Part shown: positions 15,806 through 35,879 of the stretch, piece by piece
Numbering within the stretch: position 1 is the stretch's first letter
Layout of the letters: each line of letters starts with the position of its first letter
Origin: Candidatus Poribacteria bacterium
GTDB lineage: Bacteria > Abyssobacteria > SURF-5
DNA: 42,160 nt
NCBI GenBank assembly: GCA_016215705.1
Contig: JACRIR010000263.1
Span: forward strand, 1-42,160
Reading direction: 5' to 3'
The notes under the pieces: generated by a model
Databases searched by the model: none
The model's input: the letters and a program-made list of their open reading frames with translations, nothing else
Told to the model about the DNA's origin: nothing
Position numbers and translations under genes: made by a program

Positions 15806-15811
15806 TAGGCG

Positions 15812-19850: not shown

Positions 19851-19966
19851 AGTATCTGTGCCGCTCTTTCACAATTCTTGAATCCCTATCGCATAATGAT
19901 CGGGCGACATTCCAACGGTTGGCGGTCCTTCGGTGGAGATTTCAACTCTGCATCTTCAACAAGGGA

Positions 19967-20010
19967 GGGAAAAAGGAAGGCGGTCTCTCTTTCGGGAAAT
20001 CGCCTTCCTT
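19967..20010 (-). terminator. Rho-independent terminator after the zinc-ribbon gene
   Basis: On the minus strand a ten-base stem (AAGGAAGGCG at 20001-20010 complement, pairing with 19973-19982) with an 18-base loop is followed by TTTTT (19970-19974 complement). It sits 23 bases beyond the stop of the small gene ending at 20033. Confidence 0.7.
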
Positions 20011-20032
20011 GCCTGTTGGTTTGAGTTGTCGG

Positions 20033-20203: not shown

Positions 20204-20256
20204 TGTGTAGTAACCACCTTTCTCAGATTTGCTGCTCGGGGACAAACACAAAGAAT

Positions 20257-21054: not shown

Positions 21055-21176
21055 ACGCACTGCCTCCTTTTTGACCAATGCCCAGGAAGTTTCCGGATTC
21101 GATGAAGAAGCTCCCGCCGCGAATCAATACATGAATGGGGGTACGCGCGGGGAATTCCTCTCGATGAAGTCACACT

Positions 21177-21204
21177 ATTTTAGCATATTTTCTGGAAATT
21201 GCAA
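21177..21204 (-). promoter_or_regulatory. Promoter of the SDR gene
   Basis: On the minus strand TTGCAA (21199-21204) and TAAAAT (21177-21182) with a 16-base spacer. The transcript would carry a leader of about 115 bases before ATG 21054. Confidence 0.5.
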
Positions 21205-21305
21205 CATAAATTTTGCTCTTCAGGGCCGTTTCGGGAAGCGATTCATATGGCCCGGGAGAACTGCTGTCCGAGAGGCGGTCGTCACGGGGTGGTTAGACCT
21301 GTGGA

Positions 21306-21752
21306 TCAGCCAAAGAATCTGTCAAAGTACTCTCGCTTGGCCAGAAGGTTGAGGTCGATTCTCAGGAAATCATCCGCCTCCGAGGCAGTGATGGGCGCGG
21401 CAAATGGATTCCTTATGGACGGCGCAACATGACATGCCGACTCTTGGCAAGCATCTGCGCCGTGTTCAACATTATTATTATCTTCAGCCTCGCGAAGTAT
21501 GCGTTCGATGCCGTTTTCGTCAACGGGACCGTTCTGAGAATTAATATATTCCATGATGATGCGGGCCAGCGACTGAATCCTCTTTCCAAAATCCTCTTCG
21601 CCACTCATATTTCGCTTGAGGCCGATTACTTTGCTATTGTAAAGAGCGACCGGCTCGCCACATATCGGGCACGGACCCATTAAGATTGTTCTCGAAGGAG
21701 GTGGAGTGATATATCCGCTTGATTTGCAGTATGGGCATGTCACACGCAGCAT
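21306..21752 (-). CDS. Hypothetical zinc-ribbon protein
   Basis: A 148-residue soluble protein. The first 40 residues form a zinc ribbon with CPYC (residues 6-9) and CPIC (about 28-31). The middle is a helical region (EEDFGKRIQSLARIIMEYINSQ and an ERILREAED helix) and the end holds DDFLRIDLNLLAKREYFDRFFG. I do not recognise the family. Two extra cysteines (DACQESACHV) lie mid-protein. The gene has its own excellent promoter with a palindrome in the spacer, suggesting specific regulation. The ATG at 21752 has AAGGTGAGG about 12 bases upstream. Confidence 0.72.
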   Translation of the reverse strand: MLRVTCPYCKSSGYITPPPSRTILMGPCPICGEPVALYNSKVIGLKRNMSGEEDFGKRIQSLARIIMEYINSQNGPVDENGIERILREAEDNNNVEHGADACQESACHVAPSIRNPFAAPITASEADDFLRIDLNLLAKREYFDRFFG

Positions 21753-21815
21753 TAGCGCTTCGCCTCACCTTCTTGCATGCACGTGCCGGACAAGGGAATG
21801 TGTATCAACGAAAAT

Positions 21816-21844
21816 ATTATAGCACAAAACCTTGTGCACTTCAA
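21816..21844 (-). promoter_or_regulatory. Promoter with operator-like palindrome in the spacer
   Basis: On the minus strand TTGAAG (21839-21844) and a perfect TATAAT (21816-21821), spacer 17 bases, with an extended TGC before the -10. Within the spacer GCACAA (21822-21827) and TTGTGC (21832-21837) form a 6-base palindrome around AACC, filling the gap between the two hexamers, a classic repressor position. It drives the zinc-ribbon gene starting at 21752. Confidence 0.65.
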
Positions 21845-21867
21845 ATCGTGTCAGACTAGATGCGGGT

Positions 21868-21905
21868 AGGGCATTGCCGGAGGGGGGATTTACCGACAAT
21901 GCCCT
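21868..21905. repeat. Hairpin in a gene-free stretch (21845-22215)
   Basis: AGGGCATTG (21868-21876) pairs with CAATGCCCT (21897-21905), and with one mismatch the pairing extends inward by three more pairs. No T tract follows on either strand. The rest of 21845-22215, about 370 bases, holds no convincing gene; short frames there have no ribosome-binding site or recognisable product. Confidence 0.45.
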
Positions 21906-22215
21906 TAGTTAGCATGATTCGTGGCCGCGCGACCCGTCAAAAGTCGCGCTATGCACCCGCTATTTGCTTCCTTCGGTTTCCGATTCGGGATTCCAATTGG
22001 GTTCAGTAATCGGAATCCTCGCCTTTCCTCATCAGGCGTTTGGACGCTCGTGCCCAGCCGTCACAAACATGTGGCCATCTCTATATGAAATCTCGCTGCA
22101 TCCAGCGCCAAGGCGGATTTGCAGCGGAATGGACGCTCTCGACATACCGGAAATTATTGTTGCCCATCTGAAATGAGTGGATAACGCGTGAGCCGACCAT
22201 ATTGTCCTCAGTGCT

Positions 22216-22380
22216 TCATCCTCTTCCCGGTTCAAACGGCGCCGATTTCGCACTTCCCTTTTTGCTCGGCAAGACGATCTCTTTTTTCAGGCTATCGATC
22301 AGTTTCTCCAATTCCTTCAACTGATTGGAATCAAAGTCGATCGGATGCGAGGGATTGCTATTTGACTTTTCCTTCGTCAT
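22216..22380 (-). CDS. Small charged protein under presumed TetR control
   Basis: A 54-residue protein: a polar N-terminus (MTKEKSNSNPSHPIDF), one amphipathic helix (NQLKELEKLIDSLKKEIV, about residues 19-36) and a basic, proline-ended tail. ATG 22380 has AAGGAA seven bases upstream. Its 5' region contains a TATGAT -10-like element and, 57 to 74 bases before the start, a near-copy of the palindrome found before the adjacent tetR gene. This is the reason to believe it is a real, regulated gene. I do not recognise a family. Confidence 0.55.
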   Translation of the reverse strand: MTKEKSNSNPSHPIDFDSNQLKELEKLIDSLKKEIVLPSKKGSAKSAPFEPGRG

Positions 22381-22436
22381 AGTGGTATTCCTTGTAGAAG
22401 CGTGTATCATATTCTCCGTTCAGACGACTGCCTCAA

Positions 22437-22454
22437 AACCGACCAGTTGGTTTG
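22437..22454. promoter_or_regulatory. TetR-type operator, imperfect copy
   Basis: An 18-base palindrome with arms AAACCGAC and GTTGGTTT around CA. It differs from the perfect copy at 23097-23114 by a single base (T for C). It lies between the tetR stop and the 54-residue gene, just upstream of a TTGAGG / TATGAT promoter-like pair on the minus strand. Confidence 0.65.
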
Positions 22455-22472
22455 TAATGTGCCAAAAAATTT

Positions 22473-23081
22473 TTATGAGGCCACCCCTTCGACCAACAGC
22501 AACCGCAAGTTTCTGAACAGGGAGGATAAGTCAATATGGCTCGGGTCCAAGTGCGCCATCATAGTCGTACCTTGCACAGCTCCGATAATGAGCAATGCGA
22601 GGGAGTCCGGATTGACCCAATCCTTGAACAGACCTTCTTGCTTTCCTTGCTCGAGGATTTGGACGATACTGGCTTTCCATTCAGCATATATCTTTCTCAG
22701 ACTTCCGGAAAAGTGCTCTTCAACTTCCATCATCTCGGCGGTTAGAACTGCCAGAAGCGCACATCCATGAAAGACATTCCCCTCGTGCGTTCTTATCATA
22801 ATGTCGAACATCCGTTCTATTCTTCTGATGGCGTCGCTCTCTTTCGCGATCTGGTCAAGCACGTTAGTGACCCAGAAATCTTTCATGTATTCTATAACGG
22901 CGTCTCCAAGCTCGTCCTTACTCTTGAAATGAAAGTAAAACCCGCCTTTTGTCAGTTCAGAGGCGGCAAGTATCTGGGCCAGAGATGTGTTATGGAATCC
23001 GTTCTTTCTGAACAATTCAGATGCGGCGTCTACGATACGCTCGCGGGTATGCTTTCCTTTTTCAAGTGTTGCCGTGACCAT
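22473..23081 (-). CDS. TetR/AcrR family transcriptional regulator
   Basis: A 202-residue regulator. The N-terminal TetR helix-turn-helix is clear: TRERIVDAASELFRKNGF (about residues 11-28), then TSLAQILAASELTKGGFYFHFKSKDEL (about 31-57). The C-terminal ligand domain (about 75-202) is helical and ends NLRLLLVEGVAS; the ligand cannot be guessed. ATG 23081 follows GGAG and lies downstream of a strong promoter and operator; the frame open to 23153 would start inside the promoter, so it is rejected. A palindrome sits right after the presumed transcription start, implying autorepression. No efflux pump lies next to it; the only gene sharing the operator is the 54-residue protein downstream. Confidence 0.9.
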   Translation of the reverse strand: MVTATLEKGKHTRERIVDAASELFRKNGFHNTSLAQILAASELTKGGFYFHFKSKDELGDAVIEYMKDFWVTNVLDQIAKESDAIRRIERMFDIMIRTHEGNVFHGCALLAVLTAEMMEVEEHFSGSLRKIYAEWKASIVQILEQGKQEGLFKDWVNPDSLALLIIGAVQGTTMMAHLDPSHIDLSSLFRNLRLLLVEGVAS

Positions 23082-23096
23082 ATTGCCCAGACTCCA

Positions 23097-23153
23097 AAAC
23101 CGACCAGTCGGTTTCTTTGATTGAAGTATACCATATACTTCGCCGCCTGTCAA
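23097..23153 (-). promoter_or_regulatory. tetR promoter and perfect operator
   Basis: On the minus strand TTGACA (23148-23153) and TATACT (23125-23130), spacer 17 bases. Downstream, at about +4 to +21, is a perfect 18-base palindrome (23097-23114) with arms AAACCGAC/GTCGGTTT around two bases. Binding there would block transcription of tetR itself. Confidence 0.8.
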
Positions 23154-23254
23154 GAACTTTTGGCCAGTGGGCCAAAAAAAACATTTCGCAGACGCGTTTG
23201 CAGCTTAAAGAAAAACATAAAATCAGGAATGTAAGTATTTGAGAGAAGGCTACT

Positions 23255-23509
23255 TCAGGCGAGTAGGTCGATGAGGCCGCCGGGTGTCTGTGCGCCGGTA
23301 TTTTGGGCGAGGCGCTGGATTGCCGGCTGCTCCTCCTGGCGATTCATCTCTGGAACCTCGCGTACGGCCAGCCATTGATCTGCGTGCGTCGCTCTGGCTG
23401 GCTGCACAAGGTTTTGAGTTTGCTCTGCCCCTCGAGAGTCGGCTGATATTGGCCGCCGCATCGCCGAAAAATCCGGTTGATTATGCGTTTGCGGAAATCT
23501 GACACCCAT
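23255..23509 (-). CDS. Small hypothetical protein (84 residues)
   Basis: The product is polar, rich in Gln, Asn and Pro, low in hydrophobic residues and probably disordered, ending GGLIDLLA. Coding is supported by context: a strong GGAGGG site seven bases before ATG 23509 and a near-consensus promoter at 23549-23577. No domain is recognised. The frame on the opposite strand over the same bases lacks these signals. Confidence 0.6.
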   Translation of the reverse strand: MGVRFPQTHNQPDFSAMRRPISADSRGAEQTQNLVQPARATHADQWLAVREVPEMNRQEEQPAIQRLAQNTGAQTPGGLIDLLA

Positions 23510-23548
23510 TTTGTTCCCTCCGGATTCTCAGTATGAATTGATGATGTT

Positions 23549-23577
23549 ATATTAGCATGTGTCTCCAGTGATGTCAA
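23549..23577 (-). promoter_or_regulatory. Promoter of the 84-residue gene
   Basis: On the minus strand TTGACA (23572-23577) and TAATAT (23549-23554) separated by exactly 17 bases. Confidence 0.7.
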
Positions 23578-23608
23578 TGCCGCACATTTGACAAAGTGCG
23601 CGCATGCA

Positions 23609-23634
23609 TTGTCAAGAGACCCTTGTGCTATAAT
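23609..23634 (+). promoter_or_regulatory. Extended -10 promoter of the phosphatase operon
   Basis: A perfect TATAAT (23629-23634) preceded by TGC, giving an extended -10. A TTGTCA at 23609-23614 is too close (14 bases) to be an ideal -35. It points to the phosphatase gene at 23688 and is divergent from the 84-residue gene. Confidence 0.6.
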
Positions 23635-23687
23635 AGAATGTGTGAGTTTACTTTTCGCGCGCATCGAATCGTGCAAGTCGGAGGCGA

Positions 23688-24179
23688 ATGGATTACAAAC
23701 GAGCTACTCTGAATTTTAGTTTTGTGGTTCCCAGCGCCATTGCGGGAATGGCGAGACCGGGCACCATTGATGCGCTTGCGGATGATCTCGCGTTCCTCCG
23801 GACGGAGGGGATCAGAGCCATTCTGTCACTATCAGAGACTCCCCTCACAGAACCGGTTGTGCGCGAGCATGGTTTTTCGTATCTTCACGTGCCGATAGAT
23901 GATTTTACCGCCCCCACTATCAAACAGGTCAATCAATGCATGGATTTCGTGGAACGTATGGTCAATGCTGAAAGGAAACCTGTGGCTGTCCACTGCGGCG
24001 CAGGGTGTGGCCGTACGGGTACGATGCTGGCATGTTACCTGGTGAGGACCGGCAAGACGGCGGACGAGGCGATCGAGACAGTCAGATTCATGAGACCCTG
24101 CTCTATCGAGACGGAGGGTCAAAAGGCTTTGGTATATCAATACGAGGAGCATCTGAAATACCGGCCACACTTCGATTAG
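23688..24179 (+). CDS. Dual-specificity/protein tyrosine phosphatase
   Basis: A 163-residue one-domain cysteine phosphatase. The P-loop is VHCGAGCGRTG with nucleophile Cys103 and Arg109 (HCx5R). A general acid Asp lies at residues 71-72 (VPIDDFTAP), at the expected distance. The N-terminal FSFVVPSAIAGMARPG segment matches bacterial and archaeal dual-specificity phosphatases. It may act on phosphotyrosine, phosphoserine, inositol phosphates or RNA 5' ends. ATG 23688 has GGAGG six bases upstream. It is 23 bases upstream of the Mut7-C gene and leads that operon. Confidence 0.88.
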   Translation: MDYKRATLNFSFVVPSAIAGMARPGTIDALADDLAFLRTEGIRAILSLSETPLTEPVVREHGFSYLHVPIDDFTAPTIKQVNQCMDFVERMVNAERKPVAVHCGAGCGRTGTMLACYLVRTGKTADEAIETVRFMRPCSIETEGQKALVYQYEEHLKYRPHFD

Positions 24180-24202
24180 ACGCGAATCAGCATCCCCTTC
24201 TA

Positions 24203-24673
24203 ATGCATTCAACTAGGCCGAGATTTTTTGCCGATGAGATGTTGGGCCGACTTGCCAAGTGGCTCCGCCTCCTGGGCTACGACACAGAGTATGCTTCCGA
24301 TCTGTCCGATTCAGATATCATTGCACGCGCCGAATCAGAAGGGAGGATTATCTTGACCCGCGACGTTTCGATGATGAAGCGGAAGAGATGCCATTCCTGT
24401 ATCTTTGTGCGCAGCGACCATTGGCGGGAGCAATTGAAGCAGGTGTATGTTGAAGCCGGACTGAACCGCAGTTCGATTCTTACTGTCTGCTCAGCGTGCA
24501 ACTCTCTGCTCGAAGTAGTAGACAAGGGCCTAGTCCAATCTCTCGTTCCGCCTTATGTGTACAAGACACAGGAGAAGTTTTCGAGATGCGACAATTGCTC
24601 GCGCATCTTCTGGTCAGCCACTCACGTCAACCAGATTATTAAAGAGCTTGAGCGTCTCACGAAGGAGTCGTAA
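24203..24673 (+). CDS. Mut7-C RNase domain protein with zinc ribbon
   Basis: A 156-residue Mut7-C family protein. The PIN-like N-terminal part has the family start FFADEMLGRLAKWLRLLGYDT (Asp at residue 10), then DSDIIARAESEGRIILTRD (Asp positions that bind metal). The C-terminal half has a zinc ribbon: CSACNSLL and CDNCSRIFW knuckles. Members are thought to be RNases, by analogy with the Mut-7 C-terminal domain and PIN nucleases. No good ribosome-binding site is present before ATG 24203, so it is probably translated by coupling with the phosphatase gene. It ends two bases before the Memo-AMMECR1 start. Confidence 0.85.
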   Translation: MHSTRPRFFADEMLGRLAKWLRLLGYDTEYASDLSDSDIIARAESEGRIILTRDVSMMKRKRCHSCIFVRSDHWREQLKQVYVEAGLNRSSILTVCSACNSLLEVVDKGLVQSLVPPYVYKTQEKFSRCDNCSRIFWSATHVNQIIKELERLTKES

Positions 24674-24674
24674 C

Positions 24675-26294
24675 ATGTCAAAGAAGATTTTCCGGATTCT
24701 CTTGGTGTCGGCGGTCCTGCTGGTCGGTTGTGGTCGCCGTGACCACGGGGATCTGGGAGCAGAGCCCCAGACGCCGCCATCTTCAAAGAGTGTGGAGACA
24801 CCGGGTGTAATACGGCCCTCAGTGGCGGGCTCATTCTATCCTGCGAACGCCGACGCGCTCAAGGGCGACATCGCGCGCTACTTGAAATCCGCGGACCTGC
24901 CCGAGACGAAGGGAGAAATTATTGCGGCTGTCGTTCCCCATGCGGGATACGTCTATTCCGGCCCTGTCGCCGCATACGCCTACAAAGCCATTGCGCAACA
25001 AGCAGCCGCCCAAGGCAAGAGCGCAGAAGGCAAGGCGAAGCTGGATGCGGTCGTGGTTCTGGCGTTCAATCATCGGGGTATGGGCCAGGGGGTCTCGGTT
25101 TACTACAGCGGAGCGATGGAGACGCCGCTCGGGAAGAAGGCAGTGAACGAAAGAGTTGCGCGCGAGTTCATGGGCTCCGATCCGGGCATCTCATTTACAA
25201 GGGGGGCTTTCGAGGGAGAGCATTCGGCGGAAGTTCAGATACCATTCATTCAGACGGCGCTGCCCGACGTTCCCATTGTACCGGTTGTCTTCAGTCAGCA
25301 GAGTATCGAAAACGTCGAAGTGGTAGAAAGAGGATTGGAACGAATTGCGAAGGCGAACCGTATCCTCGTTCTGGCTTCAACCGATCTCTCTCATTACCAC
25401 CCTTATGAGGAAGCCAACTCGCTGGATGGGCGCATCGTCAAGCAGATTCTGGAAGGGAGCCCCAGAACGATGGCGCAGTTCCTGAACGAGCATTATGAAG
25501 ACATGCGAGGGCCTTGCGGGGTCGGGCCTGTTCTCGCCGTCTTGTCCTTTGCAGAAAGTCAGGGCGCCGAACCCGTTCTGCTCAAATACGCCAATTCGGG
25601 CGACACTTTTGGCGATAAGGATGCAGTCGTTGGATATGCCTCCATCGTGTTTATGAAAAAGCCTGCGCATGACCCTTTGAAATCTGATCGTCAGACGCCG
25701 GGCGCCTCAAATACTCCGAACAAATCGGGTTCGTATTCTCTGAGCGACGGCGACAAGAAAACCCTTCTTGGGCTTGCAAGGCGTTCGCTCGAAGCTTTTG
25801 TACGCGACGGACGCATTCTCAAGGCCGATCCTCCCGAGAGCGAGATCCTTCTGAAAGATGGCGCCGCCTTTGTCACTCTCAACAAGAACGGGCAATTGCG
25901 AGGCTGCATCGGCCAAATGCAGGCCACGATGCCCTTGTACCAGACGGTCATCCGGATGGCTGTGGCGGCCGCTTCTGAGGACCCACGTTTCTCTCCGGTC
26001 AAACCCGAGGAGTTGAAGGATGTTCATATCGAAATATCCGTCAACTCTCCTCTGCGACCTGTGTCAAGCCCGGATGAGATTGTTCTCGGGAAACATGGTG
26101 TAGTGGTTGCGAAAGGATTCCGACAAGGAGTGTTTCTCCCTCAAGTGGCAACCGAAACGGGTTGGACCAAAGAGGAATTTCTGCGCAATCTATGCGCCCA
26201 CAAGGCCGGCCTGCCACCGGACGCCTACATGCACGGCGCCAGGTTGTACGTCTTCACCTCGATTGTCTTCGAAGAGGAGAAGGGGCATTCTTAG
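24675..26294 (+). CDS. Lipoprotein fusing Memo (AmmeMemoRadiSam B) and AMMECR1 (A) domains
   Basis: A 539-residue protein. The N-terminus has a lipoprotein signal with lipobox LVGC (Cys19), so the protein is exported and acylated. The Memo domain spans about 47-328, with the metal-site residues His89 (VVPHAGYVYSGP), His183 (EHSAEVQIPF) and Cys281 (GPCGVGP), and TDLSHYHPYEEA. A linker of about 25 residues leads to the AMMECR1 domain (about 353-537) with its signature LRGCIG at 408-413. Memo and AMMECR1 usually occur as separate cytoplasmic proteins or fused, together with a radical SAM enzyme; none is seen here. ATG 24675 has AAGGAG nine bases upstream. The reaction of the system is not firmly known; a metal/redox role has been shown for human MEMO1. 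Confidence 0.92.
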   Translation: MSKKIFRILLVSAVLLVGCGRRDHGDLGAEPQTPPSSKSVETPGVIRPSVAGSFYPANADALKGDIARYLKSADLPETKGEIIAAVVPHAGYVYSGPVAAYAYKAIAQQAAAQGKSAEGKAKLDAVVVLAFNHRGMGQGVSVYYSGAMETPLGKKAVNERVAREFMGSDPGISFTRGAFEGEHSAEVQIPFIQTALPDVPIVPVVFSQQSIENVEVVERGLERIAKANRILVLASTDLSHYHPYEEANSLDGRIVKQILEGSPRTMAQFLNEHYEDMRGPCGVGPVLAVLSFAESQGAEPVLLKYANSGDTFGDKDAVVGYASIVFMKKPAHDPLKSDRQTPGASNTPNKSGSYSLSDGDKKTLLGLARRSLEAFVRDGRILKADPPESEILLKDGAAFVTLNKNGQLRGCIGQMQATMPLYQTVIRMAVAAASEDPRFSPVKPEELKDVHIEISVNSPLRPVSSPDEIVLGKHGVVVAKGFRQGVFLPQVATETGWTKEEFLRNLCAHKAGLPPDAYMHGARLYVFTSIVFEEEKGHS

Positions 26295-27040: not shown

Positions 27041-27703
27041 TCATTCCCGTTGCCGTTCCCCGAGCAGAATTCCGATCGCATCGCGGCGGATTGGTATCCC
27101 CTTGACGCATCTGCATTCGCGGCAACTCGAACATCGACGTATACCGAGCGAGGCAGCCTGAGCGCGTCTGTCCTCCGTGTCGCGAGGATCAAGATGCAAC
27201 TGAGCGAGTTTGACAAAAACATATGGCCCACCGAAACCCTCATTCTTCCAGTCAAATTGAGAGCAAGTCGAAACACAACCGTAACACTCCAGGCAGCCCG
27301 CCAGCCGACGATATACCTCCGGAATCCGCATTGCGCCGAGGGCCTCGCAGACGGCCGCAGAAACGTAGAGCCGTTGCGTTGATAATCTCTTGTCGAGAGG
27401 CGACCGGTCCACTATCAGGTCTCGTACCGGCGGCAAGTTTCGCAGGGGAGAGATTCTCATTCCCGGAGTTGCCTTTGTCAGACAAGCAAGGCTCGGACGG
27501 CCGTTGACTTCGACTGCGCATTCGCCACATTTTGCACAACGGCATCCGTACCTGAAAGCCAGCGTCGAATCGCGGTTCTCATATATATGCAAAAGGACCT
27601 GAAGAACAGTAGCGTCCTCTTTGAGCGGAAGCGAATAAGTGTTTTCCACGAGCTTCGCCTGGTCCGGATCATATCTGGCGACTAGAACAGTTGCGGTCTG
27701 CAT
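27041..27703 (-). CDS. Succinate dehydrogenase/fumarate reductase-like iron-sulfur subunit
   Basis: A 220-residue SdhB/FrdB-like electron-transfer subunit. The N-terminal plant-type [2Fe-2S] motif is YGCRCAKCGECAVEV with a further Cys in RPSLACLT (about residues 52-73). The C-terminal dicluster domain starts at CLECYGCVSTCSQ (about 138-150). The last cysteine motif (RRCSSCRECRCVKGIP, about 190-205) is oddly spaced compared with the usual CxxxxxCxxxCP of SdhB, so the [3Fe-4S]/[4Fe-4S] arrangement may differ. Its start overlaps the flavoprotein stop by one base (TGATG), showing tight coupling. No membrane anchor gene follows, so the pair is probably soluble or docks to another partner. It is the last gene of the nine-gene operon. 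Confidence 0.88.
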   Translation of the reverse strand: MQTATVLVARYDPDQAKLVENTYSLPLKEDATVLQVLLHIYENRDSTLAFRYGCRCAKCGECAVEVNGRPSLACLTKATPGMRISPLRNLPPVRDLIVDRSPLDKRLSTQRLYVSAAVCEALGAMRIPEVYRRLAGCLECYGCVSTCSQFDWKNEGFGGPYVFVKLAQLHLDPRDTEDRRAQAASLGIRRCSSCRECRCVKGIPIRRDAIGILLGERQRE

Positions 27704-29535
27704 CAGACATCTCCGCCATACTGACCCAGGTTGAGTCGTGAGTCGAGAACCCTGGCTTGAATACTCCGAGGTAGAATACTCAAGATCGCAAATTGAATGT
27801 GTTCGCGGAGCCGATTTGGTCCGCCTTTTGTGGCAAGGCCGAACTTCGACAGTGTGACATCTTCAGTTTCAATCCTGAGCGATCCTTCATCGATCCGAAC
27901 GACGATGTTCTTGAGCCAGTTTCCATCATCGCGTTTGGGATAATCGAGTCTGAAGTGTCCTCCGCGGGATTCCTCTCTCGCGAGCGCGCTTCGGGTCACC
28001 ACTTCTGCCACCTGAACCATCTTCTCAAGTTCAAGAGCCTCGATCAAATCCGGATTACATTCTTTTCGATTCGAGACGCGGAGGTCTGAGATCTGTCCGG
28101 AAATCTCGGTAATAGTGCTGAGCGCGGCGTTGAGACGCCCGCCGTCACGAAGGGGGCCGACCATTTCCCACATCGTTTTCTGGAGTTTTCGGATGAGACG
28201 AATCGGAGCGAGTAGTCCCTGTTTGCCCGGAAGTTTCAGCGAGTGGGAGCAACCATCATCCACAGACGTGAAGTCGCACGCCGGCGTTTCCATTTCAGCC
28301 GCTGCTTTGGCGGCTGCCTCTCCCGCAAGGCTTCCGAAAATGAATAACTCAGCCAGAGACGTGGAACTGATACGGTCCGCCCCGTGGAGCCCTCCCTGGA
28401 CTTCTCCGACGGCGAAGACATTCTCGAGGCCGCGAATTCGACAATCCGCCTCCACCCTTACGCCACCCAACTGATAGTGAGCCGTGGGGAAGACATCCCA
28501 TGGGACCCGTCCGTTGGCGGCCTCCTCGCCGTATGCGCGCCTGACGGCGTCAATCATCGAGGGAAACGTTTGCTTGAGGAATTCCAGCATCTTTGCGCCA
28601 ACCACCTTCCGCAGGTTCGGCGACAAATCGAGCAGCAACCCGCCGTATTCGCCGGCGGCGCCTTTTTCTTTTGCGAGCGACATTGCAGCCGCGACCTCTG
28701 CGCGCGTTCGCGTCCTGATGTGAGTAAGAGCCTGGCCGCCGTGCGCGTCGAGAAGTCTGCCGTATGGTCCGGCGATGGCCGGCTCGCCGCACACGATCCC
28801 GATCATTGACTCCGGATGCGTCAGCGCAAAGGGAATGAATTGCTGTTGTTCCATATCCACAAGCCTGGCTCCGGCATCGAGCGCAAGAGCATATCCGTCG
28901 CCGGAGACTCCGCGAACGTTGCTTGTGTGCGGATAGAAAATCCAGCCAAGGCCTCCTGTGGCCAGGATGGTTTGTTTTGCCACAATCACAAGAATCTCAC
29001 CTGTCAGCCATCTCAAACAGAGAGCGCCGGTCACGGCTGAGCCGGACTTGAGCAATTTGATCGTGAGAGTTTCGTCCAGAATCTTTGCGCTTGTGTGGGC
29101 AAGGGATGCCCTGAGCGCTGTTCCAAGAGGGATTCCTTCAGAATAGGTGGTGAGGGTTCGGGGAAGGCTGTGCCCCCCGATGGGGATGGGGAGTGGAGCC
29201 GGCTTTCCGGCGTGGTTTCGCGAGAAGAGGAGGCCGAACTTCTCCATGAGTTCGGCCGCAAGATGCGCCCGATCGCAATAACTTTCCACGAGAGACTGGT
29301 CGCCGAGAAACTCGCCGCCGACAATCATATCGCGCATGAGAGCTTCGACGGAGTCTTTCGGGGAGATATTGGGCCGCAGAACGAGGCCGCCCGAGACGCG
29401 GGTGTTGCCGCAGCCGTAGGGTCCTTTGGATACGATTATGACTTGTGCGCCGGCCTGAGCGGCGGTTACTGCGGCCACAATGCCCGCTCCGCCCGCTCCG
29501 ATACAGAGCACATCGCAATCGACTCTCTTAATCAT
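27703..29535 (-). CDS. Fumarate reductase/succinate dehydrogenase-like flavoprotein
   Basis: A 610-residue FAD enzyme of the SdhA/FrdA/NadB group. The N-terminal Rossmann motif is CIGAGGAGIVAA (about residues 11-22). The GGHSLPRT segment carries a His where covalent FAD attachment occurs in the family. Further motifs are ATGGLGWIFYPHTSN, FPTAHYQLGGVRVEADC (catalytic His/Arg region), and FAVGEVQGGLHGADRISSTSLAELFIFG near 390-415. It could reduce fumarate, oxidise succinate, or act on another alpha-beta unsaturated acid or acyl group. Placement next to an acyl-CoA dehydrogenase in the same operon makes a beta-oxidation-linked role attractive, by inference. It starts seven bases after hypA. Confidence 0.9.
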   Translation of the reverse strand: MIKRVDCDVLCIGAGGAGIVAAVTAAQAGAQVIIVSKGPYGCGNTRVSGGLVLRPNISPKDSVEALMRDMIVGGEFLGDQSLVESYCDRAHLAAELMEKFGLLFSRNHAGKPAPLPIPIGGHSLPRTLTTYSEGIPLGTALRASLAHTSAKILDETLTIKLLKSGSAVTGALCLRWLTGEILVIVAKQTILATGGLGWIFYPHTSNVRGVSGDGYALALDAGARLVDMEQQQFIPFALTHPESMIGIVCGEPAIAGPYGRLLDAHGGQALTHIRTRTRAEVAAAMSLAKEKGAAGEYGGLLLDLSPNLRKVVGAKMLEFLKQTFPSMIDAVRRAYGEEAANGRVPWDVFPTAHYQLGGVRVEADCRIRGLENVFAVGEVQGGLHGADRISSTSLAELFIFGSLAGEAAAKAAAEMETPACDFTSVDDGCSHSLKLPGKQGLLAPIRLIRKLQKTMWEMVGPLRDGGRLNAALSTITEISGQISDLRVSNRKECNPDLIEALELEKMVQVAEVVTRSALAREESRGGHFRLDYPKRDDGNWLKNIVVRIDEGSLRIETEDVTLSKFGLATKGGPNRLREHIQFAILSILPRSIQARVLDSRLNLGQYGGDV

Positions 29536-29542
29536 TGAGGCG

Positions 29543-29884
29543 CTATTCTATCTCGATCTCCTTGACGGCGAGTTCCATTCCCTCGACAACGTCCACGTCC
29601 TTCGACGCGCAATTCGGGCAGATGAACTCAAAGTTGAGCACGGGAAACACGTTGTCGCACGGTTTGCATTTTCCCTTTATGGGCACTATCTCGAAGTCGA
29701 GAGTTGCGCCCTCGGCAAACGTGTCTTTCGTAATGAATTGAAAGAAGAACGAAAGCTGGCTGGGAACAATGCCGCGAAGCTCGCCGGCCCGTATCCTGAC
29801 TGTCTTTATCTTTCGCGCGCCATTCCGTTGCGCTTCGGCAAGCACGATTCTCAGGATGCTCTGCGCAATTGACATTTCGTGCAT
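29543..29884 (-). CDS. hypA: Nickel metallochaperone HypA
   Basis: A 113-residue protein matching HypA in length and order. The N-terminal MHEMSIA holds the nickel-binding Met-His-Glu. The C-terminal zinc finger has CKPC and CPNC knuckles about 25 residues apart. HypA delivers Ni to [NiFe] hydrogenase (or urease and others) together with HypB, also in this operon two genes upstream, with the ferredoxin protein in between. No hydrogenase structural gene or hypCDEF lies in the window, so the client must be encoded elsewhere, or the pair serves another nickel enzyme such as CO dehydrogenase. It is 18 bases after the ferredoxin gene. Confidence 0.93.
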   Translation of the reverse strand: MHEMSIAQSILRIVLAEAQRNGARKIKTVRIRAGELRGIVPSQLSFFFQFITKDTFAEGATLDFEIVPIKGKCKPCDNVFPVLNFEFICPNCASKDVDVVEGMELAVKEIEIE

Positions 29885-29902
29885 ATGGTGTCGCCTTCGC
29901 TC

Positions 29903-30970
29903 TCAGAGCTTCCCTTTTTCCTGCATTATGGTGGTCATCAAATCGCGCACGTCACGTTTGGGCTCGGCGAGGGTTTCCCTTCGTTTCATCGTGAGTGACT
30001 CAGTGGGGCAGACCATATTGCAGAGTCCGCAACCGAGGCACTTTTCACGGTCAACCTCGGCTATCTCGTTGACCGTAAGCGCGCCGAAGTGGCATCTGTC
30101 CACGCAAGAGCCGCATGCCACGCAGGTTTCGGCGTCGATGTCGACCACGAAGTGCGAAGTGGCAATGGCGTGCGGTTTGTGAAGACGGGTTACTCCGCCC
30201 AGAAGACCACAACAGCAGCCGCAGCAATTGCAGATGAAGTTTATTCGCTTCTGCGTATTGTCGGAAAGGTGGACCAGCCCTTCCTCTTCGGACCTGTCGA
30301 GCACTTTATAGGCGTCTTCCCTTGTGATCTTACGGCCAAAGCCGCGCTCGACGGCATACCGCGCAAATGGACCGAATGTGAGGCACGTGTCCTTGGGCCT
30401 GCCACAGGACTTTCCCAATAATTCCATCTCATGCCTGCAATAGCAGACCGACAGGGCGATATCGTCGGACTCCTGAATAAACTTCGACACCCGCTCGTAA
30501 GGGAAAACTTCCACACCGCTCGGGATTTCCTTCTCCATCACCACGATACGAGCCAACTGTGTTTTCGAGGCGAACAAATCCTCGGCCCAACCCGTGTGCC
30601 ACATGGCGTCAAAAAGACCCGCAAGCTTCGTCGCTCTCTCGTTTACTTCGCCCTTCATAAACTGAAGCTCGAAGATGCCAGGCACAAGGGGGAAAAGGCT
30701 GTAATGATCCGTCCCGTCTTGTTTCCGATGATACACTAGGCCCTTATTGGACATGGTTTCAAGGATAGGCTTGAGCTCGCCCTCCGAACGTCCAAGCATC
30801 CCGCAAATGGAAGGCAGCGGAGTCGGAAGTATCGGCAACTCTCCGGCCAGTTCGGCCTCTTTTTCAGTGAAGAGTGTTTTAAGAAGCTCAATGAATTTCT
30901 CCGTTCTCGGCGCTCCCGCGGGATACTGATTGAGCTTGTCAATAAGTCTTTCGTAAGTGTTTTCAGTCAT
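29903..30970 (-). CDS. Winged-helix/ferredoxin protein with a Cys-rich central motif
   Basis: A 355-residue protein. The first ~100 residues look like a winged helix (ICGMLGRSEGELKPILETMSNKGLVYHR). The middle has CYCRHEMELLGKSCGRP...DTC (about residues 185-209) and FICNCCGCCCGLLGG (about 257-271), six or more closely set cysteines. The C-terminus holds two [4Fe-4S] motifs, CVACGSCVDRCHFGA and CLGCGLCNMVCPTES (about 294-308 and 323-337). I recognise the general type (4Fe-4S proteins common in syntrophs and sulfate reducers) but no defined function. It may be an electron carrier for the flavoprotein pair or a redox sensor. It sits between hypB and hypA with 18-base gaps on both sides. Confidence 0.85.
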   Translation of the reverse strand: MTENTYERLIDKLNQYPAGAPRTEKFIELLKTLFTEKEAELAGELPILPTPLPSICGMLGRSEGELKPILETMSNKGLVYHRKQDGTDHYSLFPLVPGIFELQFMKGEVNERATKLAGLFDAMWHTGWAEDLFASKTQLARIVVMEKEIPSGVEVFPYERVSKFIQESDDIALSVCYCRHEMELLGKSCGRPKDTCLTFGPFARYAVERGFGRKITREDAYKVLDRSEEEGLVHLSDNTQKRINFICNCCGCCCGLLGGVTRLHKPHAIATSHFVVDIDAETCVACGSCVDRCHFGALTVNEIAEVDREKCLGCGLCNMVCPTESLTMKRRETLAEPKRDVRDLMTTIMQEKGKL

Positions 30971-30988
30971 CTTATAGATCCTCCTCGC

Positions 30989-31651
30989 CTAGTTCTTGCG
31001 CTTTGCCGCCAGTTCCGCCTTCACCCAATTGAGCCACGCATCGAGTCCCTGTCCCGTCGTGCAGGATAGCGGAAGTATCATGAGTCGGGGATTGATTCTA
31101 AGCGCGTTTTCTTTTGCCTCGTCCATTTTGAAATTCGTGTAGGGAAGCAGATCGATTTTGTTGATAAGCATCGCCGACGATTCCCTGAACATGAGCGGAT
31201 ACTTAAGGGGTTTCTCATCGCCTTCGGTGACGCTTAGAAGCATAACCTTATGGTCTTCGCCGATCTTGAATTCGGCGGGGCAAACAAGGTTGCCCACGTT
31301 CTCCACGAAGAGGACATCAATGGAGGAGCAGTCCAGATTCGTGAGCGCGCTCTTTGTCATGTTGGCATCGAGGTGGCAGGCGCTGCCCGTGTTTATCTGA
31401 ACGATAGGAACATCGAACTTTCTCAGGCGGTCTGAATCTCTCGTGGTTGCGATGTCGCCCTCTATCACTCCCACGCGGACTCCGTCCGCTTTCAGCCTCT
31501 CGATTGTTCGCTCAAGAAGCGTCGTCTTCCCGGCGCCCGGAGAACTCATCATGTTTATGGCGAGGACGCGGTTCGGCGCCAGGATGCCTCTGATCTCGTC
31601 GGCAATGATATCGTTTGCTTCAAGTATGTTGTTGAGTACGGTTACTTTCAT
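30989..31651 (-). CDS. hypB: Nickel-insertion GTPase HypB
   Basis: A 220-residue SIMIBI-class GTPase. Walker A is SSPGAGKTT (about residues 36-44, Lys42). Metal-site residues are in NTGSACHLDANM (Cys-His) and ENVGNLVCPAEF, typical of HypB. The guanine motif NKID (INKIDLLPY) is present near 164-167. The N-terminus lacks the His-rich nickel-storage segment of some HypB proteins. It uses GTP hydrolysis to release Ni to the client together with HypA. It lies 22 bases after the acyl-CoA dehydrogenase gene. Confidence 0.94.
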   Translation of the reverse strand: MKVTVLNNILEANDIIADEIRGILAPNRVLAINMMSSPGAGKTTLLERTIERLKADGVRVGVIEGDIATTRDSDRLRKFDVPIVQINTGSACHLDANMTKSALTNLDCSSIDVLFVENVGNLVCPAEFKIGEDHKVMLLSVTEGDEKPLKYPLMFRESSAMLINKIDLLPYTNFKMDEAKENALRINPRLMILPLSCTTGQGLDAWLNWVKAELAAKRKN

Positions 31652-31673
31652 TTTCCTTCACCCCAGTTCCGGT

Positions 31674-32828
31674 TCACATGAACGCGCTTATTCCCGTGGC
31701 AAATCTGCCGATTATCAGTTTCTGTATCTGTGTCGTTCCTTCGTAGAGGCTGGCTACGCGCGCATCGCGCATATAGCGCTCGACGGGGTACTCGTTGGAA
31801 TATCCGTATCCGCCGAAAACCTGGATTGCGCGGTTGCCGCATCGGAGCGCAGCCTCCGACGCATAAAGCTTCGCGATGGACGTCTCGCGAGTGTTGGCGA
31901 CCCCCTTGTTCTTGAGATGTCCCGCCTGAAACACCAGAAGACGAGCGGCCTCCGTGTCAACGACCATGTCGGCAATCAATTCCTGGACGAGTTGAAAACC
32001 CGCAATCGGCCGGCCGAACGCTGTCCGCTCCTTCGCATATTTAACGCTCGCATCGAGGCATCCCTGGCAAATTCCGACGCAGCCGGCAGCCACACTGTAA
32101 CGCCCGTTGTCCAGCGCACTCATCGCTACCTTGAATCCGTCACCCACCTTTCCCATCAATGCGCTTTCAGGCGTCTTCACATCCTCGAGCGTGAGCGATG
32201 ACGTGTCGGACGACTTGAGTCCAAGCTTGCCGTGTATCGGCTGAGACGAGAAACCTCTCGTGTCGGTATCGACAAGGAATGCCGCCAGTCCTTTGTGGCC
32301 AACCTTCTTGTCGGTTTGCGCGAATATGATCGCTATCTTTGCAACCCGGCCGTTTGATATCCACATCTTGTTCCCATTGAGCGTCCAATTGGAGCCGGTC
32401 TTCTTCGCGGTGGTGGAGATGTTTGCGGCGTCGCTTCCGGCGTCCGGCTCGGTGAGTCCGAAGCAGCCGATTATCTCGCCTGAGCAAAGGCGTGGAAGGT
32501 ATTCTTGCTTCTGTTCCTCGGAGCCCCATTTGAGAATAGTGAGCGCGACGAGGGAAGTAGTGACCGACAAAACGGTGCGGACGGACGAACAGGCCCGCCC
32601 GATCTCTTCCGTTATGACGGCGTATGAAATGAAATCCATGCCGGCGCCCCCGTATTGCTCAGGTATCGGAGCGCCTAGGAAACCGAGACCGGCCATCTTC
32701 TTCACGATTTCCGCAGGGAACTTCTCCAGGGCGTCATTGTCGCGGGCAACTGGAAATATTTCTTTTTCCGCAAACTCTCGAGCGGTTTGTTGCGCCGCCC
32801 TTTGTTCATCGGTCAGTTCGATGTACAT
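31674..32828 (-). CDS. Acyl-CoA dehydrogenase
   Basis: A 384-residue FAD enzyme of the short-chain/butyryl-CoA dehydrogenase type, complete in length. Signatures are GCFGLTEPDAGSD (substrate/FAD loop, about 125-137), QVFGGYGYSNEYPVERYMRDAR (about 335-356) and the catalytic Glu363 in SLYEGTTQIQ. It oxidises acyl-CoA to trans-2-enoyl-CoA, or runs in reverse, passing electrons to an ETF. No ETF genes are nearby. ATG 32828 has AAGGAAAA eight bases upstream; a TTG at 32855 would overlap the VWA gene stop. It is the fourth gene of the operon. Confidence 0.94.
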   Translation of the reverse strand: MYIELTDEQRAAQQTAREFAEKEIFPVARDNDALEKFPAEIVKKMAGLGFLGAPIPEQYGGAGMDFISYAVITEEIGRACSSVRTVLSVTTSLVALTILKWGSEEQKQEYLPRLCSGEIIGCFGLTEPDAGSDAANISTTAKKTGSNWTLNGNKMWISNGRVAKIAIIFAQTDKKVGHKGLAAFLVDTDTRGFSSQPIHGKLGLKSSDTSSLTLEDVKTPESALMGKVGDGFKVAMSALDNGRYSVAAGCVGICQGCLDASVKYAKERTAFGRPIAGFQLVQELIADMVVDTEAARLLVFQAGHLKNKGVANTRETSIAKLYASEAALRCGNRAIQVFGGYGYSNEYPVERYMRDARVASLYEGTTQIQKLIIGRFATGISAFM

Positions 32829-32844
32829 GAGACTTTTCCTTCGC

Positions 32845-34254
32845 CTATCTGGCAATGAGTTTCTCCACGACCGATATCAATTGTCGCGTGTTGCGGCACT
32901 CGTGCGCTTCTTCACAAAACGGCATGTACTCATACATGACGCTGTCACCCAGACGCCATGCCGCACGGGCCTCCGGATTCAGCCAAATGATGCGTTTCGC
33001 TTTTTCCGACATTTGTTTGAACGCCCATATCCTCGGGTCGTTGCGATTATTTCGCGCGTCGCCAATCACTATGATTGTCGTCCGGGGGGTGACAGAATCA
33101 AGAAACTCATCAGTGAACTGATGAAAAGCATATCCGAAATTGCTATGCCCGTTATAATCGACAAGCCTCGAGTGCAGTGCAAGCTGTATTGCGGCGTTTA
33201 TCTCATATTCGGAAAACACGCGAGTGACCTCTGCGATTTCGGTCACAAAGACGAAAGTTCTCACCTTCGAAAAGATCTCTTGGAGCGCATACAAGAACTG
33301 AAGCATGAACCGGGCGGCGTAACCGACAGAGTCGGAAACATCGCAGAGCGCGAGTATCTGCGGTTTCTCGCGCCGGCGATTCTTGTAGCATAGCTCCATA
33401 GGCGCGCCGCCGTACTGAAGGTTGCGGCGAATTACTCTCTTTACGTCTATCCGTCCGCGCTTGCGAATTTTTTGCCTGAGCAGCAGCTTGTCTCGCATCT
33501 TCTTGCCCAGCCGCGCGACGATGTCCCGCATTTGGTCAATCTCACGCTGGGACAGGAGATAGAAGTTCTTGTTGAGCAGTTCTTCTTCTTTCAGTCTCTC
33601 GCTTCTGCCCAGCATGTTCTTCTCGAGCGCGCCGCGCACGAATTCTCTGACGGTGCCGGAGAGACGCTCCATCCTCATCCGGATAAACTCGATCAACCTG
33701 TCGATTCCTTCAGGTGAATACCCCTCTCCTGCGAGTTGCCGCCGGAGTCTCTCGACTTCCTCTCCGAGAACGTCCCAGCCCAGGCTGTCCCGCATCTTCC
33801 GCGAAAAAAAGCCGACCTGCAACGGGTTGCTTATCTCGCTCATACCCGCGTGCGTTCCCCGCTCCATCAGCGTCAGTTCGAAGTCGCCGCCAATCTGCCA
33901 TTGAAACATCCGGGCGAGAGTCTCATACTCCGAGATGTTTTCTTCAAGGAATGATTCGAGAAACTCCTGTACTGTGGCCCGGCCGAACGGCATCGATCCC
34001 GTGTCGGGCTCTCCTGTGTCATTGTCCGGAGAGGATTTACTGAGCGAAGTGAAGTAAAGCTCGAATAGCTTGTCGAAGGCCGGAATGTCCACCGTCCGTT
34101 TCACAAGCGTCGCCCGCAGAGCGGCCTTGAAGGCGGGCTTGCTCTCGAGGCCGAGGACTCCCAGCGCCTTGAAACAGTCCACAGTCTCCGAGAGCGTCAC
34201 TCGCAGGCCGGAAGCGCGCAGCGCGTTGACAAATTCCAGAATTGTCTTATCCAC
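32845..34254 (-). CDS. CoxE-like VWA domain protein
   Basis: A 469-residue soluble VWA protein of the CoxE group. The N-terminal two-thirds is helical and charged. The VWA domain (about 295-469) has MIDAS motif DVSDSVGY (Asp-x-Ser-x-Ser), YNGHSNFGYAF, and VIGDARNNRND near 405-415. CoxE-like proteins act with a MoxR ATPase (the next gene upstream) as a chaperone pair that helps assemble or insert metal cofactors; in the cox system this serves the CO dehydrogenase. The 12-base gap to the MoxR gene and shared transcript support the pair. Confidence 0.88.
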   Translation of the reverse strand: MDKTILEFVNALRASGLRVTLSETVDCFKALGVLGLESKPAFKAALRATLVKRTVDIPAFDKLFELYFTSLSKSSPDNDTGEPDTGSMPFGRATVQEFLESFLEENISEYETLARMFQWQIGGDFELTLMERGTHAGMSEISNPLQVGFFSRKMRDSLGWDVLGEEVERLRRQLAGEGYSPEGIDRLIEFIRMRMERLSGTVREFVRGALEKNMLGRSERLKEEELLNKNFYLLSQREIDQMRDIVARLGKKMRDKLLLRQKIRKRGRIDVKRVIRRNLQYGGAPMELCYKNRRREKPQILALCDVSDSVGYAARFMLQFLYALQEIFSKVRTFVFVTEIAEVTRVFSEYEINAAIQLALHSRLVDYNGHSNFGYAFHQFTDEFLDSVTPRTTIIVIGDARNNRNDPRIWAFKQMSEKAKRIIWLNPEARAAWRLGDSVMYEYMPFCEEAHECRNTRQLISVVEKLIAR

Positions 34255-34266
34255 GAACCCATCCCA

Positions 34267-35193
34267 TCAATTCAATTTGCCTTCCGTAGACGACAGGACG
34301 TTGTGCAGATTACTCTTGACTTTCTTTATGTCACCCTCATACTTGAGAAACAGATTCAGCGTGGATTTCACCGTCTGCTCATCGAGCGCGGCCACATTCA
34401 GGATCGTCAGCGCGCGGGCCCAATCGAGCGTCTCGCTGATGCTGGGAAGCTTCTTCAGGTCTACCTTCCGTATTTTCTGGATGACGTTTACAACCTGCGA
34501 AGCCAGTGTGTCGGTAATGTTCGGAACCTTGAGATTGACAATTTCCATCTCCTGCTGCGGAACCGGAAAATCAATGAACAAATGAAGGCATCGTCTCTTG
34601 AGCGCGTCGGTCATCTCGCGTGCGTTGTTGCTCGTGAGTATGACGCGCGGGATATGCCTTGCCTTAATGGTCCCAAGCTCAGGCACGCTCACCTGAAAAT
34701 CACTCAGGACCTCGAGCAAAAACGCCTCGAATTCCGGGTCCGACTTGTCGACCTCGTCAACGAGGAGCACTACCGGTTTTTCGGAGAGAATGGCCCGAAG
34801 CAGGGGGCGGGGGAGAATGAAATCTTCCGAAAAGAATGCGTTATCCTCTTTGTCGATCTTCTCTACGGCCTCTTTCAGGCTCCGGCAGTCACCCAGCACT
34901 TCGCCGACTTTCTCCTTCAGTATCTGAGTGTAGAGAAGCTGCTTGGCGTATTCCCACTCATAGAGAGCTTTACTTTCATCCAGTCCTTCATAACACTGTA
35001 TCCGGATGAGTTCCAGCCCGGAGGCGTCGGCCCAGACGCCAGCGAGACTCGTTTTCCCGACACCTGCCGGACCCTCCACCAGGACGGGCTTCTGCATCTG
35101 TTCGGCAAGATATATCACAGTTGATATCTCGTCGTTGCAGATGTATTTCTGCTTCCTGAACTCCTGAGCGACGTCTTCCTTTGATTTGAACAT
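34267..35193 (-). CDS. MoxR family AAA+ ATPase
   Basis: A 308-residue MoxR/CoxD-like ATPase. Walker A is GPAGVGKTS (about residues 41-49, Lys47), Walker B is VVLLVDEVDKSDPEF (about 137-151), sensor 1 is LTSNNAREM (about 182-190), and a sensor 2-like region follows. It hydrolyses ATP to remodel a target protein complex together with the VWA protein encoded next. ATG 35193 lies about 13 bases after GAGGAG; the longer open frame to 35274 overlaps padR and is rejected. Confidence 0.93.
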   Translation of the reverse strand: MFKSKEDVAQEFRKQKYICNDEISTVIYLAEQMQKPVLVEGPAGVGKTSLAGVWADASGLELIRIQCYEGLDESKALYEWEYAKQLLYTQILKEKVGEVLGDCRSLKEAVEKIDKEDNAFFSEDFILPRPLLRAILSEKPVVLLVDEVDKSDPEFEAFLLEVLSDFQVSVPELGTIKARHIPRVILTSNNAREMTDALKRRCLHLFIDFPVPQQEMEIVNLKVPNITDTLASQVVNVIQKIRKVDLKKLPSISETLDWARALTILNVAALDEQTVKSTLNLFLKYEGDIKKVKSNLHNVLSSTEGKLN

Positions 35194-35201
35194 GGCGGTC
35201 G

Positions 35202-35879
35202 TTACTCCTCGGTCGCAGGTGTTTTCCTGGATATTTGCCTTCGTCGAGTAGAGAGCGCAGTCCTTTGGACGCACGCTCTTTCTTCGGACGCTTGAGTGCC
35301 AGGAGAGTCTATGCGCGCTTTCTTATGATTGTTCGGGCGGCCTCGCCTGAGTTCAGCCTCGAGCCAAGCGCTCGCCCATTCTATCTTGAGCGACTGTGTT
35401 TTAAGTCCGAACTCGAGGATTCTGACCTTGTGACAGTCCACTTTGCGTTTCCGCATCTCATCGCGTATACGCTCGTACTCCGCGATTTTCTCCTGAGCGG
35501 CGGCAATCTGGCGATTCAGTTTTTCGATTCGCTGCTTCCGTGTCAGATGTTCGAAGAAATTGCATTTGATAAGGAAGTTATATTGCGCGAAGAAGTCATA
35601 TTTAAGATGGTCGGTCTCGTCTTCCGGCCCTGTAAGCCAATGCAGAAACTCCTGCGTGCCGAGGCCGGTGATATGATAGAGATTCTTGTTGGGGGACTTC
35701 CGCTGGCGCACAGTCTCCTTCTCTACAAGCTTTCCGCGTTCGAGTTGGGTCAGCAGGGGATAGACCTGTCCGTCGTTGAGGCCGCCTTTCGAGGCAAACG
35801 GAGCGAATATCCTCTTTATGCGATACCCGTGCGCGGGACCCTGCAATAGGAATCCAAGGATTGCATGCTTGATTGCCAT
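35202..35879 (-). CDS. PadR family transcriptional regulator
   Basis: A 225-residue regulator. The PadR winged helix is clear: AILGFLLQGPAHGYRIKRIF (about residues 6-25), then GQVYPLLTQLERGKLVEKE and a wing ending YHITGLG (about 69-75). A helical C-terminal domain follows (coiled coil EKLNRQIAAAQEKIAEYERIRDEMRK), with a basic disordered tail (about 175-225) longer than in most PadR proteins. ATG 35879 matches the family start. It is the first gene of the nine-gene operon, 8 bases before MoxR, and a palindrome lies over its transcription start, so it probably represses its own operon until an inducer binds. The ligand is unknown. Confidence 0.9.
   Translation of the reverse strand: MAIKHAILGFLLQGPAHGYRIKRIFAPFASKGGLNDGQVYPLLTQLERGKLVEKETVRQRKSPNKNLYHITGLGTQEFLHWLTGPEDETDHLKYDFFAQYNFLIKCNFFEHLTRKQRIEKLNRQIAAAQEKIAEYERIRDEMRKRKVDCHKVRILEFGLKTQSLKIEWASAWLEAELRRGRPNNHKKARIDSPGTQASEERACVQRTALSTRRRQISRKTPATEE

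Follow-up and report, generated by a model that had tools for sequence, protein, structure and literature searches.

Few types of nickel enzyme are known, and genes for HypA and HypB are usually read as hydrogenase or urease genes. In the isr operon of Acetobacterium wieringae, two HypA and HypB are encoded together with IsrA, a putative isoprene reductase of 901 aa, and a 350-aa ferredoxin, and isoprene strongly induced this operon (PMC10134865, Kronen 2023). The first ~270 aa of IsrA align with the isr ferredoxin, and six IsrA cysteines, four of them in the CxC motifs 180/182 and 254/256, were proposed to hold a metal cluster (cluster V) that possibly contains nickel (PMC10134865). A second point of reference is RavA-ViaA, a MoxR-VWA pair that acts on the fumarate reductase of E. 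coli: ViaA binds FrdA via its VWA domain and lowers fumarate reductase activity, although the effect on activity is disputed by others (PMC10585395). Here, we compare these systems with a nine-gene operon in a 42,160-nt stretch of DNA from Candidatus Poribacteria bacterium (contig JACRIR010000263.1; hereafter the window), which joins HypB and HypA to a winged-helix ferredoxin (wHFd), a FrdAB-like pair, an acyl-CoA dehydrogenase, a MoxR-VWA pair and a PadR-family regulator.

Our preferred reading, to which we assign a probability of roughly 0.4, is that the nine genes specify an anaerobic redox system of several parts, with wHFd and its own putative nickel loaders HypB and HypA at its core. With the same tentativeness, wHFd is the best-supported client of the operon HypAB, its nickel binding being putative. 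A redox module that probably needs nickel and is helped in assembly or remodelling by MoxR-VWA had already been proposed in a sequence-only reading of the window, and this part is supported by our analysis. The same reading had found no described system alike and no metalloenzyme candidate in the operon, both of which need revision: the isr operon is a close precedent that combines hypA, hypB, a wHFd-type ferredoxin and a flavin/Fe-S oxidoreductase (PMC10134865), and wHFd itself carries a candidate metal site.

Gene families were assigned with Pfam and NCBIfam profiles. Family comparisons cover the window genome (G000) and two members of other genera in the same family (G001 and G002), which were the only same-family genomes among the sampled relatives. 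All three are draft assemblies whose completeness of about 91-98% limits statements of absence, and whole-genome statements on the window genome stem from family searches in a 92%-complete assembly.

The winged-helix ferredoxin carries the proposed metal site of IsrA

The wHFd of the window (355 aa; 29903..30970, minus strand) is a stand-alone homologue of the N-terminal module of IsrA and is composed of a winged helix (residues 1-101), a cysteine-rich middle domain (about 106-272) and two 4Fe-4S clusters (283-321). In an AlphaFold2 model (34 homologues; mean pLDDT 94.3), residues 1-101 resemble the winged helices of MarR/ArsR proteins (best Z 7.6, SarZ), backing the winged-helix start that had been read from the letters, and residues 275-330 adopt a bacterial-ferredoxin fold. 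A fold search with the whole model returned winged helices and ferredoxins only. When modelled alone (pLDDT 80), the middle domain gave no match above Z 3.3, a value that is no proof of a new fold. This domain holds the cysteines C176, C178, C189, C196, C247, C249, C250, C252, C253 and C254.

A search with the window wHFd against 245 genomes from the class of Clostridium magnum recovered open frames of about 830-960 aa that carry the wHFd module N-terminally; both fusions scanned (n = 2) showed the domain order of IsrA (module, Fer4, Fer4_20, Pyr_redox_2). The alignment was made with these clostridial IsrA-type fusions, and the numbering of IsrA itself was taken from PMC10134865. C176, C178, C196, C247, C249 and C254 proved invariant in 13/13 IsrA-type fusions and in every stand-alone wHFd aligned, while C189 was present in 11 of the 13 fusions. 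The two CxC motifs are 71 positions apart in the window wHFd, compared to 74 both in a 901-aa fusion and by the numbering published for IsrA. Given the invariant cysteines and near-equal spacing, the window wHFd has the proposed metal site of IsrA, CxC...C...CxC...C, with nickel binding putative in both proteins.

Like the isr operon, the window operon thus combines, in an anaerobe, hypA and hypB with a cysteine-rich wHFd-type module (six or seven cysteines) and a flavin/Fe-S oxidoreductase. The two differ in how the parts are joined. In IsrA (about 900 aa), the module is joined to an NfnB-like FAD/NAD(P) part (Fer4_20 plus Pyr_redox_2), whereas the window module stands alone with two 4Fe-4S clusters; no IsrA-type fusion was found in G000, G001 or G002 at E<=1e-20. 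The window partners are instead a FrdAB-like pair and an acyl-CoA dehydrogenase, only one HypA is encoded, and MoxR-VWA and PadR are added. This comparison suggests a variant of the isr-type system with other partners.

The cysteine pattern was also considered as a marker separating HypAB-linked from unlinked wHFds, but failed, the cysteines being kept in all. H234, G231 and S272 were commoner in HypAB-linked wHFds, in a small sample of related sequences. Paralogues of the wHFd family are unusually many in the three family genomes (13, 13 and 9 matches in G000, G001 and G002, respectively, at E<=1e-20), some of them in tandem, and one per genome adjoins HypA.

HypA and HypB accompany the module in distant lineages

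In 12 of the 13 IsrA-type fusion loci opened, both hypA and hypB lay no more than two genes away, and a 14th fusion showed the gene order hypB-hypA-fusion. None of seven stand-alone clostridial wHFds (~430 aa) had both genes within that distance. Outside the family, 88 wHFd loci were picked by wHFd sequence and not by HypAB; in five of these a stand-alone wHFd had an adjacent hypA, namely those in metagenome-assembled genomes of Symbiobacterium (L034), Dehalococcoidia (L035), Nitrospinae (L037) and Syntrophothermus (L040), and in genome G036. Four of the five also contained hypB, in varying gene orders. Random placement would yield about 0.2 of 88 loci, a rough figure that assumes a density of 1.5 hypA in 3,000 genes, with four slots counted as adjacent.

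The HypAB-linked wHFds scatter over the wHFd tree (some placements being unsure due to long branches), which suggests that the linkage arose or persisted repeatedly. In a HypB tree, many inner branches of which are weak, the window HypB grouped with those of L035 and L037 (support 92/85), and the HypBs of L040 and G036 with IsrA-linked ones (94/98).

The surroundings of these loci differ. In the Dehalococcoidia genome, a convergent cooS for an anaerobic CO dehydrogenase lies behind hypB-hypA-wHFd (L035:1717-5941). In the Nitrospinae genome (L037:1333-8296), one wHFd lies behind a gene resembling the D component of 2-hydroxyglutaryl-CoA dehydratase, and hypA-hypB adjoin another wHFd and genes for methylmalonyl-CoA mutase.

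Nickel enzymes and the client of HypA and HypB

Compared with the HypA and HypB of [NiFe]-hydrogenase maturation, both window proteins score above their family cut-offs and keep the nickel and zinc residues. HypB (30989..31651, minus strand; TIGR00073, 267 bits), a nickel GTPase, has the metal-site residues of the G-domain (C92-H93 and C124), and HypA (29543..29884, minus strand; TIGR00100), a nickel metallochaperone, has the MHE start and a zinc site formed by C73/C76 and C89/C92. They differ in being unlinked to a hydrogenase or to HypCDEF. The nine-gene cluster contains neither a hydrogenase large subunit nor HypCDEF, and a domain scan detected no urease in the cluster, no genome-wide urease search having been made.

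The statement of the sequence-only reading that hydrogenase and CO dehydrogenase are missing holds for the cluster, but not for the genome, where the search for nickel enzymes that it had proposed found Ni-CO dehydrogenase, LarA homologues and a [NiFe]-hydrogenase. The large subunit of the latter, with RLCGIC and DPCLSCATH ligands, is encoded on contig C254, where the hydrogenase gene stands with a maturation protease and hypF-hypC-hypD-hypE, but without hypA or hypB (L139; positions 14000-24833 of the contig). The operon HypA is the only one found in the window genome, and G001 and G002 likewise have a single HypA. Ni-CO dehydrogenases were found in all three family genomes and in genome G390, and LarA homologues in 6/6 genomes tested, including those of the family.

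These findings, together with the cooS gene adjoining the trio in L035, favor an account in which the clients of HypAB lie elsewhere (CO dehydrogenase/acetyl-CoA synthase, LarA or the hydrogenase of the window genome), with wHFd as an ordinary electron carrier that is co-regulated anaerobically. Service to a distant nickel enzyme had been one option of the sequence-only reading, and the window genome, with its sole HypA and a contig C254 hydrogenase lacking HypAB, agrees with it. Other genomes do not: no hydrogenase above the cut-off was detected in G001, G002 or G390 (the last having a sub-cut-off match only), and G036, G387 and G393 each encode two HypA, one beside wHFd and a separate one on a [NiFe]-hydrogenase contig. 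In G036 and G393, moreover, no CO dehydrogenase exceeded the family cut-off. With a second HypA at the hydrogenase and no such CO dehydrogenase, the HypAB beside wHFd would, in these two genomes, most simply have wHFd itself as client. The IsrA fusions show the same HypAB linkage, and the operon of the window family has no cooS or acs link, cooS being adjacent only in L035. To our knowledge, maturation of CO dehydrogenase is not an established role of HypAB. Weighing both sides, we regard service to distant enzymes as a possible, if rather doubtful, explanation.

Each of these enzymes was also considered as the only client. Hydrogenase as sole general client was rejected in view of G001 and G002 (none above the cut-off), G390 (sub-cut-off) and the second HypAs in three genomes. 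CO dehydrogenase as sole client is weakened by G036 and G393, though cooS adjoins the trio in L035.

Organisation and conservation of the operon

The nine genes share the minus strand (35879..27041) and are separated by 8, 12, 16, 22, 18, 18 and 7 bp, with a final 1-base overlap between FrdA and FrdB. This confirms the layout given by the sequence-only reading (nine same-strand genes, 7-22 bp gaps, one 1-base overlap), whose family names for the nine genes also hold in the Pfam and NCBIfam scans. Most starts are preceded by a purine-rich Shine-Dalgarno-like stretch, e.g. GAGGAG ahead of the MoxR ATG at 35193. The first gene encodes the PadR-family regulator (35202..35879, minus strand; Pfam PadR, 5e-13, plus Vir_act_alpha_C). 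Just upstream of it lie a terminator with a 13-bp stem (36032-36003) and, on the minus strand, a promoter-like site (35973-35945). The site makes the claim of one promoter plausible, although such sites are no more frequent in the region than in shuffles; a single transcript for the nine genes is likely.

All nine genes, their order and their genomic neighborhood are kept in G001 and G002. As the same genes recur in the same order in other genera of the family, the operon is real and more than a chance cluster. Identity within the family is highest for the acyl-CoA dehydrogenase (84-87%), followed by HypB (80-82%), MoxR (76-77%), wHFd and HypA (about 74-79%), FrdA (64-65%), VWA and FrdB (61-68%), and PadR (51-59%). 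In G001, an additional gene for a 268-aa Fe-S protein is inserted between VWA and the acyl-CoA dehydrogenase, with a gap of 359 bp behind VWA.

The possibility that the neighbors separate in related genomes, raised earlier, is thus not borne out within the family, where the nine genes stay together, but is realised outside it, where the operon appears as separate blocks. PadR-MoxR-VWA occurs without the remaining operon genes in genome G058 (L261), and in five lineages HypAB-wHFd has neither FrdAB nor MoxR with it. FrdA paralogues sit at separate sites in G000 and G002, and at E<=1e-90 FrdA is confined to G000, G001 and G002 among 386 sampled genomes. Relatives of the VWA protein (E<=1e-60) were found in 21/376 genomes and adjoined MoxR in most; those in other genomes had no FrdA or wHFd alongside within the examined flanks of ~1.5 kb.

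The nine genes might accordingly be read as a lineage-specific chain whose modules (PadR-MoxR-VWA; acyl-CoA dehydrogenase; HypB-wHFd-HypA; FrdAB) are independent of one another. They would have one promoter in common because a single anaerobic condition calls for all of them, and would form no physical or pathway unit. The free-standing blocks, the FrdA paralogues, and the extra gene and gap that split MoxR-VWA from the rest in G001 all fit such a chain. The order kept in three genera, the mostly short gaps and the FrdA-FrdB overlap do not, and the interaction of RavA-ViaA with FrdA offers a direct reason for MoxR-VWA to stand with FrdA. We consider a chain of this kind unlikely.

The flavoprotein pair, acyl-CoA dehydrogenase and MoxR-VWA

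The FrdA/TfrA-like flavoprotein (27703..29535, minus strand; FAD_binding_2 and Succ_DH_flav_C) was compared with E. coli FrdA, mycobacterial Sdh and relatives. It keeps the catalytic Arg/His/Arg core (R278, H353 and R388, corresponding to E. coli Arg287, His355 and Arg390), as do G001, G002 and two paralogues. Asn replaces the covalent-FAD His, Ile234 stands at the position of E. coli His232 and Gly at that of E. coli Thr244; these altered FAD and clamp residues are identical in both same-family relatives. From these residues, the protein should catalyse hydride transfer at a C-C/C=C bond without the ordinary fumarate clamp. The FrdB-like Fe-S subunit (27041..27703, minus strand) combines Fer2_3 and Fer4, i.e. 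a 2Fe-2S domain and a cysteine-rich 4Fe-4S part. The best sub-threshold models for the pair were TfrA and TfrB. With TfrAB, FrdAB and SdhAB it shares the flavoprotein plus Fe-S domain architecture, but it differs in having no CCG domain in the FrdB-like subunit, no operon gene for a membrane anchor, no covalent-FAD His and an altered substrate clamp. Further FrdA-like flavoproteins, which share 44% identity with the window FrdA and show the same altered active site, are encoded at L137:845-4198 and L138:7783-9492; the one in G002 has a FrdB partner and adjoins a DUF362 protein.

The acyl-CoA dehydrogenase (31674..32828, minus strand) is a short-chain enzyme close to butyryl-CoA and acryloyl-CoA enzymes, with the catalytic glutamate present (YEGT). 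In combination with the conserved FrdA core, this could point to acyl-CoA oxidation by the dehydrogenase with electrons passing via FrdAB to a quinone or to electron bifurcation, as in the sequence-only reading, HypAB being a remnant. Such a route would have to do without electron-transfer flavoprotein (no etfAB in the operon), a quinone anchor and a CCG subunit. The intact metal-binding residues of HypAB and the strong conservation of HypB (80-82%) argue that HypAB is no remnant. We judge this route very improbable.

The MoxR-type AAA+ ATPase (34267..35193, minus strand) and its partner, a VWA protein of CoxE type (32845..34254, minus strand; Pfam VWA_CoxE, 3e-38), resemble MadB and MadC, respectively. 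Their scores against these models (349/475 and 166/600 bits) are both below the curated NCBIfam cut-off, and a literature search on MadB/MadC found nothing. As in RavA-ViaA, a MoxR AAA+ protein is paired with a VWA protein, and in the window both share an operon with a FrdA-family flavoprotein. The window pair is, however, MadB/MadC-like and CoxE-type rather than orthologous to RavA-ViaA, and the window FrdA is a soluble TfrA-like enzyme. By analogy, MoxR-VWA probably remodels the FrdA-like flavoprotein.

Further genes of the window, all on the plus strand, include a fusion of Memo-like and AMMECR1 domains (24555-26294, 579 aa) that adjoins the operon in G001 and G002 too, a DUF362 plus 4Fe-4S protein with a weak Lar_N-like stretch (11848-12993; E 4e-4) that is seen in G002 also, and an open frame of 700 aa with no Pfam match at E<=1e-5 (15978-18080).

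A tentative mechanism

If the operon is a redox system built around wHFd, GTP-driven HypB would hand nickel to HypA, which would load it into the cysteine-rich middle domain of wHFd. There, a Ni/Fe-S or double-Fe-S site would arise, resembling the cluster V proposed for IsrA. Both 4Fe-4S clusters of wHFd would shuttle electrons between this site and a partner, likely the separate, soluble FrdAB-like pair in place of the fused NfnB-like FAD/NAD(P) part of IsrA. The short-chain acyl-CoA dehydrogenase would supply or consume enoyl-CoA, MoxR-VWA would remodel or control the FrdA-like subunit, after the model of RavA-ViaA on FrdA, and PadR would repress the operon. The most likely substrate would be a compound with a C=C bond, either a CoA ester or some other unsaturated molecule.

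Several points weigh against this scheme. Nickel in IsrA, as in every wHFd, remains putative, and the same cysteines are invariant in wHFds without neighboring HypAB, so that the cysteine site alone does not call for HypAB. The published neighborhood network shows no association of HypA/HypB with the stand-alone ferredoxin (PMC10134865). Outside the family, neither FrdAB nor MoxR-VWA is linked to HypAB-wHFd, and close FrdA relatives are family-only (376-386 genomes). Finally, because the operon HypA is the sole one in the window genome and the hydrogenase locus lacks HypA and HypB, the operon HypAB very probably also serves the [NiFe]-hydrogenase of contig C254.

Implications for nickel biology in anaerobes

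Since the operon joins nickel loaders to an Fe-S protein with an IsrA-like putative metal site, wHFd, rather than a distant hydrogenase, may receive the nickel. A broader proposal, which we hold to be possible at best, is that wHFd and the N-terminal module of IsrA represent an unrecognised class of redox proteins that depend on nickel and are matured by a HypA/HypB of their own. With the FrdAB-like pair, the window operon would use such a protein for the reduction or oxidation of an unsaturated acyl-CoA or hydrocarbon. The recurrent linkage bears on the published view, in which IsrA, but not the stand-alone ferredoxin, is associated with HypAB (PMC10134865). If HypAB loads the wHFd module, the role of HypAB in the isoprene-reductase operon would become approachable on a small protein of 355 aa, annotators should not infer a hydrogenase from HypAB alone, and many anaerobes would hold an overlooked nickel redox protein.

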